NCBI RefSeq assembly: GCF_014203095.1
Contig: NZ_JACHIG010000001.1
Coordinates: 682,001-746,000, forward strand
DNA length: 64,000 nt
Reading direction: 5' to 3'
Source of the DNA: Prosthecobacter vanneervenii
Lineage (GTDB): Bacteria; Verrucomicrobiota; Verrucomicrobiia; Verrucomicrobiales; Verrucomicrobiaceae
Position 1 is the first letter of the stretch, and the number at the start of each line of letters is the position of its first letter. Of this stretch, positions 56,551 to 62,533 are shown in pieces. Position numbers and translations under genes: made by a program. The notes below the pieces were generated by a model. The model did no database searches. It had not been told where the DNA came from and saw only the letters and a program-made list of their open reading frames with translations.

Positions 56551-57126
56551 ATGCCTGCCCCGACGCCTGATCTCAAAGTGGACGAGGTTCTGCCGCCTGC
56601 GCAGATCAATCCCATCGCGGCAAAGCTCGCAGCCAGCGCCGATCCCGGCGACCGTGCGACAGCAAGGATCCTGGCAAAGTATCTCGATGAACTCCTGCGC
56701 CTGCCCGGCACCAATGTGCGGATAGGGCTGGACCCCATTCTGGCCCTGTTTCCTGGCGTGGGAGACACCGTGGCATCAGGCGCGGGGCTCATCATCCTCA
56801 TCGAGGCATTGCGCAGTGGCGTCTCCATTCCCGTCTTTTTGCGCATGACGCTCAACATGGGGGCAAACTTCCTCCTCGGCCTCATCCCTGGCGCTGGTGC
56901 GCTGGCCTCCATCTTTTTCAAATCCAATTCGCGCAACCTCCACCTGCTGCACACCTGGCAGGCTGGCCATAGTGCGAAGGTGGAACGCAGCACGCTGCGT
57001 TTTTACCTCGGCCTGCTCATTTTGGCAGGCATGGTCGCCACGTTCATCATCGTCGGCTGGGCTTTCTATGCCTGGCTCTTTTACTCAGCTGTGCAGGCGG
57101 TGCTGCATGCCTTGGGCATGCGCTGA
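56551..57126 (+). CDS. DUF4112-family membrane protein
   Basis: 191 residues. The conserved DUF4112 block runs from LLRLPGTNVRIGLDPILALFPGVGDTVASGAGLIILI through NMGANFLLGLIPGAGALASIFFKSNSRNLHLL, about residues 52-135, followed by a C-terminal membrane span (about 152-180, FYLGLLILAGMVATFIIVGWAFYAWLF). The function of the family is unknown. It follows rho by 151 bp and precedes a PrsW gene by 36 bp on the same strand, so it may be transcribed with the protease. Confidence 0.9.
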   Translation: MPAPTPDLKVDEVLPPAQINPIAAKLAASADPGDRATARILAKYLDELLRLPGTNVRIGLDPILALFPGVGDTVASGAGLIILIEALRSGVSIPVFLRMTLNMGANFLLGLIPGAGALASIFFKSNSRNLHLLHTWQAGHSAKVERSTLRFYLGLLILAGMVATFIIVGWAFYAWLFYSAVQAVLHALGMR

Positions 57127-57162: not shown

Positions 57163-58059
57163 ATGAGTGACATGCTCTATCAAAATGCCGCCACACTCTC
57201 AGGCCTGACCATCTGGTACGGAGTACTCGTTCTGCTGGGTTACCCTGGCCGCGCTCCTTGGCGCTGGCTTTGGCCGCTGCTCCCACTGGCGGCAGGGTGG
57301 TGCAGCTTCCGTGCGGTCGGCTGGTATCTTGTCACCGTGCACCCTGCTCTGGCCCCGGCCCTGCAGCAGCTCTCTGGCGGACGCACCCTCATGCTTTTCA
57401 TTCAGGATGTGGGGCTGCGCGAGGAACTGTTCAAGCTCCTCTTCGCCATCCCATGCTTGCTCTGGCTGTCCCCAAAACCAGCTATTCCGCGCAGCTCCTT
57501 GCTCACAGCAGCCTTGGTAGGCCTAGGCTTTGCCACGGCGGAAAATCGCTGGTTTTTCGGCGGCCATGCGGAACCCACTTTGCTGGTGGGTCGCGTTTTT
57601 TCCACCACGGCGCTGCACATGACGGCCACCGCCCTCTGTGGAGCGGCGTTCATGGCAGCCCGCCTCCACTCGCGGCCATGGGCCTGGTTCTGGACTGTCT
57701 TTTTTTGCGTGGTCGTAGCACACGGACTCTATGACTGGGCCCCTGCCAGCACCTGGGCATGGTTGAGGGCGGGCGGCACCTCCTGGCTGTCTCAGGCTGT
57801 GGTTATCGCCTTGATAGTCAGCTTTTTTCGCACCTATCAGCACTTGCAACCCACCAGCTCCATGCAGCCACGTGTCGCACTGTGGTTCATTCTGGGAGCC
57901 GCCATCCAGTACACCCTCTCGCTGGGCATCACCTGGCAGCGCTGGGGCACTTCGGAAGCCCTCTGGATCTGTGCTAGGGAATGCCTGCTTTTTCTTCCAG
58001 TAGTGACTGCCACCGCCATCGTCATGGCTCCAATTTCACGTCTAAAGCGGAAAGCATGA
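57163..58059 (+). CDS. PrsW-family intramembrane metalloprotease (first copy)
   Basis: 298 residues with about eight spans. The family's metal-site motifs are visible in order: E-E-x-x-K in LREELFKLLFAIP (near residue 86), F-A-T-A-E-N (about 128), H-M-T-A-T (near 151) and H-G-L-Y-D in AHGLYDWA (about 190). PrsW of Bacillus cuts the anti-sigma factor RsiW at site 1. Whether this copy acts on a regulator is unknown. ATG 57163 (MSDMLYQN) is preferred over an in-frame start nine codons upstream. A possible terminator follows the stop, and then comes a tiny PEP-CTERM gene. Confidence 0.85.
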   Translation: MSDMLYQNAATLSGLTIWYGVLVLLGYPGRAPWRWLWPLLPLAAGWCSFRAVGWYLVTVHPALAPALQQLSGGRTLMLFIQDVGLREELFKLLFAIPCLLWLSPKPAIPRSSLLTAALVGLGFATAENRWFFGGHAEPTLLVGRVFSTTALHMTATALCGAAFMAARLHSRPWAWFWTVFFCVVVAHGLYDWAPASTWAWLRAGGTSWLSQAVVIALIVSFFRTYQHLQPTSSMQPRVALWFILGAAIQYTLSLGITWQRWGTSEALWICARECLLFLPVVTATAIVMAPISRLKRKA

Positions 58060-58061
58060 CA

Positions 58062-58088
58062 TAAAGATAAGGATATTCTTTATTTTTT
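58062..58088 (+). terminator. possible AT-rich terminator after the first PrsW gene
   Basis: A 6-bp inverted repeat TAAAGA (58062-58067) / TCTTTA (58077-58082) followed by six T. The stem is AT-only in part and short, so efficiency is doubtful, but the position right after the stop fits. Confidence 0.35.
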
Positions 58089-58167
58089 ATTGCCTTCGCA
58101 TCAAGATTTTCATAAAATTATTAAATCGGCATGAATTGGAATCATGTCTCCCCCCTAACCTTCACTC

Positions 58168-58344
58168 ATGAAATACATCCTCACCCTCGCCACACTTGCC
58201 ATCGCTTCGGCAGCTTCTGCGGCTGAAGCCACCGGCATCGCCCCGGACGCTAGCATGAACCTCTATGCTGCTGTCCCCGAGCCTTCACACGCCATGCTGC
58301 TCCTCATGGGCTGCGTGGGTCTTGCTGCCCGCCGTCGCCGTTAA
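58168..58344 (+). CDS. miniature PEP-CTERM protein
   Basis: 58 codons, too short for most gene calls. Signal peptide 1-19 (KYILTLATLAIASAASAA), a mature part of only about 16 residues (EATGIAPDASMNLYAA), then the complete PEP-CTERM sorting signal: V-P-E-P at 36-39, a hydrophobic segment (about 43-54, MLLLMGCVGLAA) and the terminal R-R-R-R. PEP-CTERM proteins are processed by exosortases and usually carry hundreds of residues between the two signals, so nearly nothing would remain after processing here. A strong terminator starts 28 bp after the stop, making it a single-gene transcript. Its neighbours on both sides include PrsW proteases. Confidence 0.85.
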   Translation: MKYILTLATLAIASAASAAEATGIAPDASMNLYAAVPEPSHAMLLLMGCVGLAARRRR

Positions 58345-58371
58345 TCCAAAAAGGCTTCCCTGTCTGTTCTG

Positions 58372-58408
58372 GCCGCATTGCATGAACCAAAATGCAATGC
58401 GGCTTTTT
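58372..58408 (+). terminator. Rho-independent terminator of the mini-PEP-CTERM gene
   Basis: A 12-bp perfect inverted repeat GCCGCATTGCAT (58372-58383) / ATGCAATGCGGC (58392-58403) with an 8-nt loop, followed by five T (58404-58408). Strong canonical terminator. Confidence 0.93.
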
Positions 58409-58489
58409 CTTGCTGCTGAAGAAAACTCAAGGGAAAACGAGCCCATTGTATGAATTGCCATTGGTCGCTGGCCCGTTATTCTGAAGGTC

Positions 58490-58963
58490 ATGCCTGAAGC
58501 TGACACCGAACCCCACATTGAGCCCGCCACCATTGAAGACCTCCCCCAGCTGGTGGAGCTGTTGATGGCGTTGTTCAGCGAGGAGGAGGACTTCAAGCCA
58601 GACCGCTCCAAGCAGGAACACGGCCTTCGCCTCATCCTGGAGCAGCCAAACCGTGGGCGTATCTTCGTGCTTCGCACCGACCACAAGGTGATAGGCATGA
58701 TCAACCTGCTTTTCACCATCAGTACCGCCGAAGGTGGGCTGGTGCTCATCATGGAAGACGTGATCGTTCACCCGGAGCACCGCCGCCAGGGCTATGGCGG
58801 GCGGCTGCTGGAGCACGCCATCGAGTTTGCCCGGGAAAAGCGCTTCCGCCGTATCACGCTGCTGACAGACCGCATCAGTGCAGATTCACAGTCCTTCTTC
58901 CAGCAGCACGGGTTCCAGTTCTCCAAGATGATCCCGATGCGGCTGGTTTTTAACGAAAATTGA
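58490..58963 (+). CDS. GNAT-family N-acetyltransferase
   Basis: 157 residues with one GNAT fold. The acetyl-CoA-binding motif A is VIVHPEHRRQGYGGRLLEHA (Q/R-x-x-G-x-G/A), preceded by the strand LVLIMEDV and followed by the motif B helix FRRITLLTDRISADSQSFFQQHGF. Substrate not predictable. It stands 80 bp after a terminator, so it has its own promoter, and is followed by a small membrane protein. Confidence 0.88.
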   Translation: MPEADTEPHIEPATIEDLPQLVELLMALFSEEEDFKPDRSKQEHGLRLILEQPNRGRIFVLRTDHKVIGMINLLFTISTAEGGLVLIMEDVIVHPEHRRQGYGGRLLEHAIEFAREKRFRRITLLTDRISADSQSFFQQHGFQFSKMIPMRLVFNEN

Positions 58964-59042
58964 ATCCTCGCAGCCACGCAGGCCGCAGTTATCCTTCATG
59001 CACTCGCTCAACCCCTTCTTTTCCAGGCCTGAAGGTGGCACC

Positions 59043-59318
59043 ATGAAGATCCCCAGGGAGTGGGCGGAGGCCTCAGACTGGTTTGTCCTCTTCACACTGG
59101 GCACTCTGTTCTTCCTGCTGGGGGCTTTTGCCATGTGGGCTTGGCTCATCTGGCGGCGCACCACCAAGCCGGAGCCCCACATGCAGCTGCTCATGGAGCT
59201 GGAAGAAGAGGAGGCAGCAGCCTCCCAGGAGCGTCAGACCACCGCTCAGGAGCAGGAGCCGGACACACGTGCCCCTTGGGAGCAGTCTCCGGACTGGTGG
59301 AAAAAAGCGGACTCCTGA
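59043..59318 (+). CDS. small single-span membrane protein
   Basis: 91 residues from ATG 59043 (MKIPREWAEASDW). One span (about 14-35, FVLFTLGTLFFLLGAFAMWAWLIW) followed by a basic RRTTKP stop-transfer and a Glu/Gln-rich cytosolic tail (LEEEEAAASQERQ) ending in a Trp-rich SPDWWKKAD. No family recognised. It ends 20 bp before the second PrsW gene, so it could be an accessory subunit of that protease. Confidence 0.65.
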   Translation: MKIPREWAEASDWFVLFTLGTLFFLLGAFAMWAWLIWRRTTKPEPHMQLLMELEEEEAAASQERQTTAQEQEPDTRAPWEQSPDWWKKADS

Positions 59319-59338
59319 GCCCCCGCCCCCCTTGCTGC

Positions 59339-60967
59339 ATGAGCGAAGAGCCCCCCTGGCACCACGGCTGGCGCGCCAGCACCCACCGCCTCTCACGAGA
59401 TCGTCAGTTCCTTCTGCGCACGGCGGCGGGCATCATCGCCAGCGGCGTCATCATCGCATGTGTCATCGTGGTCGGCAGCATGCCACAGGGCAAGACGCCC
59501 GCTGTGCACGCCATCACGCCGGAGTTGAGCCAGTTGCAGGAAGAATTTAACTACCTGCGCCAGGAAGGCGCGCCGCAACCACGGGCCTTTGCCCGCTGGC
59601 TGCGGCTGCTTCTGGACCAGCTCCCAGCCCTCACGGACGAGGGCGACGTCACTGCCTACCAGACCTTCAGCCAGACGGGCATGCTCGGCGGCTATGAGCT
59701 GGCGCATCTGATTCAGTTGCATGCCAGCACGGATTCTCCGGCGGGCCTCTTCCGCAGCTTTCTGGCCGCAACGCTGGCCGGGGATGCGGAGGCGCTGCGG
59801 ACGCTGACGCAACAGGCCGCATCCAAACCGCCGTTAATGCTGGCTGCCGAGCTTCTTGGCAGCACCAAAAAACGTCTGCACGACCTGCCGGGTGCCGCGC
59901 ATGCCTTCTATGAGGAAGGATTCCACTTTGTGGATGCAGCTAGCGCGCGGGAAGAGGCCCTGCGCCTCGCCATCACCCAGCGGGATCTGCCCCTGCTTCG
60001 CGCCATCGCCGCACAGCCGGGGTGGATCGAGGAGTGCCACCCGTGGCTGCAGCACCACGCAGGCTCCCTGCTGGGAGATGTGTGGCTGCAGTGGCGGGGT
60101 CTGCTGCGGCAGCGCCTGAACGAGATCCCCTACGGCATGCTGGCACTGGCTTTTTTTGCAGCGGCGCTTTGGTATTTTATCTTGGTGCAGCACACCGAGC
60201 CCGAGCCCTGGCGCTGGCTGCGCCCCATGGGTGCGCTCACTGCAGGCATCCTGAGCGTGTGGCCCACGCTCACCATACTGGCCTATCAGGAATTTGTGCA
60301 GGGCATGACAGCTGAGGCCCCCTTTCCTCATGACCTGCTTTACTACCTCACGGGTGTGGGACTGCGTGAAGAAGGCTGCAAGCTGCTGCTCTTCTCCCTT
60401 TTTCTGCCATGGCTGCTATGGCGGCGCACGCCCGGGCTCGCGCTGCTGACGGGAGCCTTTATTGGCCTGGGCTTTTCTCTGGAGGAAAACATCGGCTACT
60501 ACCAGGACTTCGGTGGCAGCGTGGCCTGGACCCGCTTTCTCTCCGCCAATTTCCTCCACATCTCCCTCACCGGCATCTGTGCGCACAGCCTCTACCACAT
60601 GCTGCTCACACGCTTTGCGCATGCAGAGGAGTTCATCATGACCTTCCTGCTGGCCGTGGCCGCGCACGGCGGGTACGACTACCTCTCCGGTAGCGAGAGC
60701 CCGGACATCCGCTGGCTTTCCATCGTCGTGCTGGTGCTCAGTGCCGCACGCTTCATCGACCTGCTATGCACTGAGACGCACCCCTCCCGGCGCACGATCT
60801 CACCTCTGTCAGTTTTCACGCTGGGCTCTGCCGTGCTGATCGCCATTTCCTTCGTACTCGGGGCTTGGAGCACACGCACCATGGGTGGCGTGGCCGCCGC
60901 CGGGCAGGAATGCCTGAGCATGGTCCCCATTGCTCTGCTCTACTGGAGGCGGTTTGAAAATACATGA
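59339..60967 (+). CDS. PrsW-family membrane protease with an N-terminal helical domain (second copy)
   Basis: 542 residues from ATG 59339 (MSEEPPWHHGWRAS). One span at about 22-46 is followed by an extracytoplasmic or lumenal helical domain (about 55-255) with TPR-like Ala/Leu repeats. The last 280 residues are a multi-span PrsW domain with LREEGCKLLLFSLF (E-E-x-x-K), GFSLEENIGYY, HISLTGICAHSLYHM and AAHGGYDYL, the same motif order as in the first copy. The open frame begins at 59060 but overlaps the small membrane protein gene. The added helical domain may recognise substrates, which is inference. Confidence 0.83.
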   Translation: MSEEPPWHHGWRASTHRLSRDRQFLLRTAAGIIASGVIIACVIVVGSMPQGKTPAVHAITPELSQLQEEFNYLRQEGAPQPRAFARWLRLLLDQLPALTDEGDVTAYQTFSQTGMLGGYELAHLIQLHASTDSPAGLFRSFLAATLAGDAEALRTLTQQAASKPPLMLAAELLGSTKKRLHDLPGAAHAFYEEGFHFVDAASAREEALRLAITQRDLPLLRAIAAQPGWIEECHPWLQHHAGSLLGDVWLQWRGLLRQRLNEIPYGMLALAFFAAALWYFILVQHTEPEPWRWLRPMGALTAGILSVWPTLTILAYQEFVQGMTAEAPFPHDLLYYLTGVGLREEGCKLLLFSLFLPWLLWRRTPGLALLTGAFIGLGFSLEENIGYYQDFGGSVAWTRFLSANFLHISLTGICAHSLYHMLLTRFAHAEEFIMTFLLAVAAHGGYDYLSGSESPDIRWLSIVVLVLSAARFIDLLCTETHPSRRTISPLSVFTLGSAVLIAISFVLGAWSTRTMGGVAAAGQECLSMVPIALLYWRRFENT

Positions 60968-61087
60968 TCCACAGCATCATTGAGAGCTGGAATGCCCCTC
61001 CTCACGCAGCAGACCCTGTGGAAATAAAGAGCCGCTTTTGGCACACTTGACCCTTCGCAACACTCCACGCATGCTGGTGGCCATATC

Positions 61088-62533
61088 ATGAGCTGGTTTC
61101 TGCACACCTTCTGGACGGACACACTGGCGCTCGTCTCCATCATCGGCGCACTGCTGGCTCTGGGGCACCTGCTGCTGCGGCATCGGGACTATCGCTCGGC
61201 AGCATTTTGGACGGCGCTCATCGTGGTGGAGCCCCTCTTCAGCCCGCTTCTCTACCTTTTTCTTGGCATTAACATCCTCCGCCGCAGCGGCCGGCGCTAT
61301 CGCAGTGGCATGCACGAGCCCTGGCACGATCCCGTCCCAGAGTATCCGCTGCCCATCACAGACTCGGGCAGCTGCACCATGCAGGAGCACCAGCAGCTCG
61401 CACGCACGCTGGACCGCATCTCGCGCTTCAGTCTCACACTCGGAAACCACCTCGAAATCCTCCGCAATGGAGACGAGGCCATGCCGCGCATGCTGGAGGT
61501 CATACGCAGCGCACAGCAGAGCATCACCCTGGCCAGTTACATCTTCGAGGCCACGGGCATCGGCGCAGAATTTGTGGAAGCCCTGTCAGCAGCCGTAAAG
61601 CGCGGTGTGCAGGTGCGTGTGATGGTGGACGATGCCGGCACCCGCTACTCATGGCCTCCCGTCATCGAGGCTCTCGAAAAAGCCGGCGTCACCGTGCGGC
61701 GCTTCATGCCCAGCCGCCTCATCCTGCGCCTGATCACCATGAACCTGCGCAACCACCGCAAAATCCTCGTGGTTGACGGCCGTACCGCCTTCACCGGCGG
61801 CATGAATATCCGGGAGGGAAACATGGTCTCTCGCCAGCCATCACATCCCGTGCACGATCTACACTTCGAAGTCACCGGCCCCTGTGTGGCGCAGATCCAG
61901 CGCGTCTTTGCCGAGGACTGGGCCTTTTGCACCCTGGAGCAGCTTGAGGGCCCCTTGTGGTTCCCCGAGCTGAATGCCACCGGCAACACCAGCGCCTTGG
62001 GCATCGTGGACGGCCCGGACGAGGACCTGGAGGTGATGCCTGCCGCGTTTTTTGCCGCGCTCAATGCAGCCCGGGAGGAGGTCAAGATCATAACCCCCTA
62101 CTTCCTGCCCAATATGGTTCTCATGGCCGCTCTCCGGCTGTGCGCCGTTCGTGGAGTGAAGGTGACCATCCTCACCCCCGGAGCCAACAACATCCCCTTC
62201 GTTGGCTGGGCCTCGCAGACGCTCTACCCCGAGTTGCTCGCCGTCGGCTGCCGCATCTACGAATCCCCAGCCCCCTTTGACCACTCCAAGATCTTCCTGG
62301 TGGATGGCGTCTGGTCCTTCCTCGGCTCCACCAACTGGGACCCTCGTAGCCTGCGCCTCAACTTCGAATTCAATCTGGCCTGCCATGATGCCGAACTCTG
62401 CCGCCGTCTCGCTGAAGAAATGGACGCCAAGCTGGCACACAGCCGCGAGATCACCCAGGACATGCTGGACGCCACCCCTGTCTCCCAGCGCCTGCGCAAT
62501 GGCTTTGCCCGGCTCTTCATCCCGCTCTTGTGA
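61088..62533 (+). CDS. cls: cardiolipin synthase (phospholipase D superfamily)
   Basis: 481 residues. Two N-terminal spans (about 10-30 and 38-62) are followed by two PLD catalytic repeats: H-x-K-x4-D in NHRKILVVDGRTAFTGGMN and in DHSKIFLVDGVWSFLGSTNW. The family condenses two phosphatidylglycerols (or PG with PE) into cardiolipin at the inner membrane. Both HKD sites are intact. It begins 120 bp after the second PrsW stop and ends a run of membrane genes on the plus strand. Confidence 0.92.
   Translation: MSWFLHTFWTDTLALVSIIGALLALGHLLLRHRDYRSAAFWTALIVVEPLFSPLLYLFLGINILRRSGRRYRSGMHEPWHDPVPEYPLPITDSGSCTMQEHQQLARTLDRISRFSLTLGNHLEILRNGDEAMPRMLEVIRSAQQSITLASYIFEATGIGAEFVEALSAAVKRGVQVRVMVDDAGTRYSWPPVIEALEKAGVTVRRFMPSRLILRLITMNLRNHRKILVVDGRTAFTGGMNIREGNMVSRQPSHPVHDLHFEVTGPCVAQIQRVFAEDWAFCTLEQLEGPLWFPELNATGNTSALGIVDGPDEDLEVMPAAFFAALNAAREEVKIITPYFLPNMVLMAALRLCAVRGVKVTILTPGANNIPFVGWASQTLYPELLAVGCRIYESPAPFDHSKIFLVDGVWSFLGSTNWDPRSLRLNFEFNLACHDAELCRRLAEEMDAKLAHSREITQDMLDATPVSQRLRNGFARLFIPLL

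Follow-up and report, generated by a model that had tools for sequence, protein, structure and literature searches.

A PrsW-family protease gene and adjacent genes for very short PEP-CTERM proteins form a conserved pair in Prosthecobacter vanneervenii and two relatives

Organization of the locus

We describe here a gene pair within a 64,000-nucleotide window of the Prosthecobacter vanneervenii genome (G000:C1:682001-746000, where G000 is the window's own genome). One gene encodes PrsW1, a PrsW-family protein, and the other, immediately downstream, encodes a PEP-CTERM protein of only 58 residues, which we refer to as the mini-protein and its gene as the mini-gene. The genes of the locus all lie on the + strand in the order rho, DUF4112, PrsW1, mini-gene, GNAT acetyltransferase, one-span protein, a second PrsW gene (PrsW2), and a phospholipase-D-like (PLD) gene (Table 1); the gene upstream of DUF4112 that we take to be rho has homologues in other genomes. 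A previous sequence-only reading of the window had described a 58-residue PEP-CTERM protein with its own terminator, two PrsW-type proteins of which the second is extended at its N-terminus, and a one-span neighbour of PrsW2, and all of these are present. It had also grouped the two proteases and the mini-protein as a trio, and here our results depart from it: only PrsW1 and the mini-gene(s) make a conserved unit, a duo of PrsW1 plus one to three mini-proteins.

Table 1. Features of the PrsW1/mini-gene locus, followed by neighbouring genes and members of a second family of short PEP-CTERM proteins.
Feature	Position	Strand	Evidence or remark
PrsW1, 298 residues, proposed partner enzyme; intramembrane protease of the PrsW family (glutamic type)	57163..58059	+	PF13367 49.1 bits
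Candidate sigma-70-like promoter of the mini-gene, weak	58090..58118	+	TTGCCT-17-TAAAAT, 9/12
Mini PEP-CTERM protein, 58 residues, proposed substrate	58168..58344	+	Open reading frame; five homologues in G002 and G058
Signal peptide, residues 1-18, with A-S-A preceding the proposed cut	58168..58221	+	By eye; S17 and A18 invariant in 6/6
Conserved core IAPDASMNLYAA, consensus IAPAPDMNLYAA	58237..58272	+	Likely functional peptide; invariant residues and lowest dN/dS
PEP-CTERM tail: PEPSH motif, membrane span, RRRR end	58276..58341	+	TIGR02595 25.3 bits
Intrinsic terminator of the mini-gene	58371..58404	+	13-bp stem and T-run; terminator scan
DUF4112 gene, upstream	56551..57126	+	PF13430 87.9 bits; landmark of the locus, outside the proposed module
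GNAT gene	58490-58963	+	Separates the mini-gene from the one-span/PrsW2 pair
One-span protein	58998-59318	+	Open reading frame
PrsW2, outside the proposed module	59339..60967	+	PF13367 60.3 bits; N-terminal extension of ~250-260 residues
Second mini family members	G000:C5:434565-434774 (L197); L164:2114-2344; L165:3686-3907; L167:4492-4713		

The mini-protein family

The mini-protein reads MKYILTLATLAIASAASA / AEATGIAPDASMNLYAA / VPEPSHAMLLLMGCVGLAARRRR, with about 18 residues between a signal peptide, assigned by eye, and the PEP-CTERM tail. It passes the 16-bit cut-off of the TIGR02595 PEP_CTERM model and narrowly misses that of PF07589 (19.2 against 20.7 bits). A protein search of 56 genomes found three further mini-genes, arranged in tandem in genome G002, and a profile search of 48 genomes of the genus found two more, in G058. 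The six proteins span 58-66 residues and share 29 invariant positions, with the homologues 64-76% identical to the window copy, and none of the six sequences has an invariant Cys. Pooled over 15 pairs, which are not independent of each other and whose synonymous sites are partly saturated, the ratio of nonsynonymous to synonymous substitution (dN/dS) is about 0.25, with regional values of 0.26 for the signal peptide, 0.62 for a variable spacer, 0.13 for the core (IAPxPDMNLYAA), and 0.22 for the tail. Residues I24, A25, P26, M30, N31, Y33, and A35 of the core are invariant in all six. The mini-genes are under purifying selection that is strongest in this core, and because the homologues are conserved and the pooled ratio is low, the mini-gene in the window represents a real, conserved gene family.

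The tails were compared in a biased sample of 59 different tails, selected by pattern in loci that had been retrieved because they resembled the mini-protein or PEP-CTERM proteins, in which PEPSH is present in all six mini-proteins versus two of the 53 others; these two sit in G032 and G025, both of which are without PrsW1. The main difference between the mini-protein tail and the local tails is at the position where PEPSH diverges, which is occupied by R in 46 of the 53. With PEPSH carried by two other tails in a sample of this composition, we do not claim it as a recognition code for PrsW1 substrates.

The promoter scans gave weak results: the window copy and the third G002 copy have one site apiece, and G058 has none. 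Stems of 14 and 12 bp follow the first and second G058 copies, and the terminator after the third G002 copy was seen by eye only, the scan having missed it. No anti-sigma factor was recognized by Pfam among the scanned neighbours in the window.

Linkage and co-distribution of PrsW1 and the mini-genes

Mini-genes occur in runs of one (window), three (G002), and two (G058), each run directly 3' of a PrsW1 orthologue, such that adjacency is seen in all three carriers with a gap of 91-192 bp between PrsW1 and the first mini-gene. Conservation of the mini-protein near PrsW in relatives was one of two checks that the sequence-only reading had set for itself, and the five homologues bear it out for PrsW1. 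PrsW1 and the full-length mini-protein are confined to the same genomes, being found in three of 48 in the genus, three of 68 in the family, and three of 386 sampled from the order, and a draw of 387 genomes from the phylum gave a match in the window's genome only; the phylum and order searches scored, for each genome, the best 16 (mini-protein) or best 6 (PrsW1) first-look candidates. PrsW1 orthologues score 549-570 bits in the family search, where the next PrsW reaches 121.3 at most, and mini-protein matches score 104-138 bits in the order search against at most 38.2 for the rest, the weaker ones falling for the most part within the PEP-CTERM tail. When GTDB 220 contigs were scanned with PrsW1, by a search that demanded exact patterns and that diverged orthologues could escape, three relatives were returned, two of them the known loci on contigs of metagenome-assembled genomes (MAGs) and the third a 27%-identical Ruminococcaceae protein. 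No mini-protein without PrsW1 was found in any of the genomes searched.

The history of the locus

The pair lies downstream of DUF4112 in all three carriers. In G058 the two are about 10 kb apart, and the order is yebC, rho, DUF4112, the 10 kb, PrsW1, two mini-genes, and a peroxiredoxin gene; in G002 DUF4112 is likewise upstream of the pair and the downstream genes differ. Among nine genomes examined that are without the pair, rho and DUF4112 are adjacent in four (G001, G030, G004, and G008) and the arrangement does not fall within the fetched stretch of the other five (G012, G013, G056, G018, and G064). In G001 and G030 the peroxiredoxin gene follows rho and DUF4112 with neither PrsW1 nor a mini-gene between, and these two are the genomes in which the peroxiredoxin neighbour is observed, the G004 stretch stopping about 1 kb past DUF4112. 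Because G001 and G030 lack both genes and the flanks differ among the carriers, the pair comes and goes as a block, which supports a coupling of PrsW1 with the mini-gene, yet not three independent events. In a tree of the C-terminal part of rho from 20 of the 48 genus genomes the three carriers are not grouped, and the carrier label needs three changes, two of which are forced by the starred branches. Clean phylogenetic independence of the carriers is rejected, as 500 of 500 shuffles also require three changes, and one gain with two losses fits.

The stretch of about 10 kb that lies between DUF4112 and PrsW1 in G058 (L054:6137-13949 and L139, G058:C22) includes a PAS sensor histidine kinase, and inspection by eye suggests another like it. 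It is missing from the window and from G002, and is possibly a later insertion.

PrsW1 is a member of the PrsW family

PrsW1 clears the PF13367 cut-off of 23.5 bits and retains the EExxK, membrane His, and HxxxD motifs. These are named as the active-site motifs of PrsW (PMC4602095), and residues E87, E88, K91, H152, H187, and D191 are invariant in the three PrsW1 orthologues and in PrsW2 of the window. The orthologues in the other two carriers are 55 and 59% identical to the window's. PrsW1 fails the equivalog model for PrsW of the Bacillus subtilis type (NF033739), scoring 19.2 of the required 225 bits.

An AlphaFold2 model of PrsW1, built from four sequences, has a pLDDT of 77.6 and a pTM of 0.82, with the five models ranging from 42.9 to 77.6 in pLDDT. 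Plain Foldseek with this model returned no E-value below 0.001, a PrsW1 profile had no matches among the sequences of solved structures, and it is in the VIA-align second look that APH-1 of gamma-secretase ranks first. The three APH-1 alignments cover 206-211 residues with Z of 15.2, 13.9, and 13.6, the next unrelated chain has Z 7.1, and two further chains from ribosome-translocon entries have Z of 14.2 and 11.6, all to be read against the best Z of 14 that mostly helical models with no clear match typically reach. PrsW has been related to CPBP/CAAX-type proteases and to APH-1 (PMC3482391, PMC4602095). PrsW1 is a member of the PrsW family, with a predicted fold shared with the PrsW/CPBP/APH-1 superfamily.

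PrsW2 and its neighbours stand apart

PrsW2 also exceeds the PF13367 cut-off, and PrsW-type matches are present in 62 of the 68 family genomes, with both PrsW types in the three carriers. No PEP-CTERM tail lies near PrsW2-type genes at any of 36 loci (32 distinct by coordinates), scanned mostly with 1.5-kb flanks over 163,181 bases and with a control in which tails were recovered in 28 of 30 loci. PrsW2 is thus a family-wide type with no PEP-CTERM tail nearby, and the proposed trio becomes a duo. The linkage of PrsW1 and the mini-gene is the part of the trio that stands; PrsW2 with its additional helical region and the one-span protein are separate from it, with the GNAT gene between, and in G002 and G058 the GNAT, one-span, PrsW2, and PLD genes are together with each other and apart from the mini-genes.

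This four-gene block (58490-62533 in the window) is 69-95% identical in G002 and G058. G002 PrsW2 is 57% identical over its first 91 residues, and was matched by tblastn (L055:4561-6184, G002:C178) as two pieces meeting at residue 91/92, possibly because of a frameshift, either in the gene itself or in its assembly. In G018 and G033, PrsW2 is the only gene of the block found in an 11-kb stretch.

A second family of very short PEP-CTERM proteins

Very short PEP-CTERM proteins are a recurring class in this family of bacteria, because a second such family, of about 73 residues, was found in 45 of the 68 genomes, once in each. A gene for gamma-glutamyltranspeptidase (GGT) is in the fetched flank at 24 of 30 of these loci and MdoG at six of 30, and PrsW1 or PrsW2 matches were found at none of the 30. 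The tail, VPEPSRA..LL..GIMAMAFTYRxAWLxWKR, is unusual.

Discussion

The nature of the pair suggests several models to consider. The one to which we lean, tentatively and at slightly less than an even chance, is that PrsW1 and the mini-protein constitute a dedicated two-gene module of enzyme and substrate. In such a module the mini-protein would be exported by Sec with signal peptidase cutting after ASA, and its C-terminal span would leave it N-out/C-in, as the motif, the span, and the RRRR end together suggest. PrsW1, in the same membrane, would cut at or near the junction of the PEP motif and the membrane, and the product, either freed or passed on for anchoring, would be a peptide some 20-30 residues long in which the core IAPAPDMNLYAA would be the functional part. 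Co-occurrence, adjacency, joint absence, the copy numbers of one, three, and two, constraint on the core, the catalytic motifs, and the precedents of rhombosortase and MrtJ suggest a module of this type. The sequence-only reading had offered a protease substrate or a processed peptide among its possibilities, and these gain weight through the linkage to PrsW1. A bolder proposal, which we consider possible and rather doubtful, is that PrsW1 is the first dedicated PrsW-type 'sortase', releasing or surface-anchoring a conserved peptide some 20-30 residues long that contains the core IAPAPDMNLYAA and is perhaps an extracellular signal.

Several observations weigh against a dedicated module. There are only three carriers, two of which are MAGs, close relatives manage without the block, and the block may have been co-inherited and hence would not represent three independent pairings. 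Each of the six genomes checked has 2-5 exosortase matches, with 3-5 per carrier and four above the PF09721 (exosortase) cut-off in G000, and each carrier has 27-34 matches to TIGR02595 with E no higher than 1, including the 1-3 mini-genes. The mini-protein tail is near-canonical for PEP-CTERM, so that a second enzyme beyond exosortase is unneeded, and exosortase may well accept PEPSH given the two of 53 other tails that have it in genomes without PrsW1. The second family of short PEP-CTERM proteins has no PrsW neighbour, and cleavage, export, and expression of the mini-protein are predictions. As for what would be expected of a single-target system, enzyme and target are adjacent and co-distributed here, and the signal type is not exclusive to the cognate target.

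Because exosortases are present in all six genomes and the tail is near-canonical, exosortase could process the mini-protein, and it is plausible, if on balance unlikely, that exosortase handles the mini-protein like any other of its substrates, anchoring or releasing the short peptide, with PrsW1 acting at a different step, for example on the membrane remnant left by the cut or on a regulator of the pathway. The TIGR02595 score, the exosortases of each carrier, the PEPSH tails in two genomes without PrsW1, and the GGT-linked short family are all consistent with this, but it leaves the co-occurrence of PrsW1 and the mini-protein in the same three genomes unexplained. The related suggestion of the sequence-only reading, that the mini-protein is a decoy or regulator for exosortase, finds no support, as exosortases are in six of six genomes checked and the mini-protein is in three of them.

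The mini-protein could instead act as a small-protein switch on PrsW1, whether as its regulator, as its sensor, or as a pseudo-substrate, as the 3/3 adjacency, the tiny size, the separate terminators, and the several copies per enzyme might lead one to expect, although a signal peptide and sorting tail would not obviously be needed for this, and we regard it as improbable. We consider it slightly less probable again that PrsW1 and the mini-gene are chance neighbours co-inherited in one locus; with three carriers a single gain followed by losses of the block is possible, but the pair has stayed adjacent, 91-192 bp apart, while its flanks changed, and a PEP-CTERM tail is absent from all 32 distinct PrsW2-type loci. 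A toxin-immunity or bacteriocin-like pair, with the peptide as effector and the multi-span protein providing immunity or processing, appears very unlikely. A small exported peptide encoded beside a PrsW/CPBP-superfamily membrane protein, the patchy distribution, and the several copies would suit such a pair, and PrsW domains have been proposed to release toxin domains (PMC3482391); however, the core is conserved across species rather than diversifying, and a sorting tail would be odd for a diffusible toxin.

If PrsW1 and the mini-protein do form a dedicated module, then PEP-CTERM tails would be served by a class of protease other than exosortase and could deliver peptides as well as large surface proteins, and another class of intramembrane sorting protease would stand beside rhombosortase and myxosortase. 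To our knowledge, few PrsW substrates are known beyond anti-sigma factors of the RsiW type and predicted toxin release. A PrsW protein encoded beside a tiny candidate substrate offers a two-gene system small enough for a test in Escherichia coli.

Comparison with known systems

A literature search, without preprints and most subscription papers, found no paper that mentions both PEP-CTERM and PrsW, and among the titles and abstract openings listed there was none on such a pair. PrsW1 has its Pfam family and catalytic motifs in common with Bacillus PrsW, which performs site-1 cleavage of RsiW (PMC4602095, PMC3482391), but falls far below the equivalog cut-off noted above. With the PEP-CTERM/exosortase system (2006, PMC1569441), in which most PEP-CTERM proteins are described as single-gene operons, the mini-protein shares the tail type, the signal peptide, and the single-gene unit. 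It differs in being very short, with only the GGT-linked family comparable among those seen here, and in its linkage to PrsW; no exosortase match lies near the pair in the three carriers.

Adjacency and co-distribution have been used previously to pair C-terminal sorting signals with their enzymes, for rhombosortase (PMC3237569) and for MrtJ (PMC11980579). In the rhombosortase/GlyGly-CTERM system (2011, PMC3237569) the genes for a single-target protease and its target also tend to adjoin, although the enzyme has a serine rhomboid fold, unlike PrsW1, and recognizes another motif. A close likeness is to MrtJ/JDVT-CTERM and the myxosortase MrtX/MYXO-CTERM (Guo, Haft and Wall 2025, PMC11980579), where a glutamic intramembrane protease adjoins one target, the distribution is sporadic, and the sorting signal is made up of a motif, a span, and a basic end. 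MrtJ and MrtX belong to the CPBP family and PrsW1 to the PrsW family, both within the wider CPBP/APH-1/PrsW superfamily. The MYXO- and JDVT-CTERM motif contains an invariant Cys, unlike the six mini-proteins, and in contrast to these systems the target here is a 58-66-residue protein with a PEP-type tail, in one to three copies, in a genome with many other PEP-CTERM proteins. These comparisons suggest that PrsW1 and the mini-protein, as a proposed enzyme-substrate pair for which we found no earlier description, resemble kinds already known, either MrtJ/JDVT-CTERM or a single-target rhombosortase.

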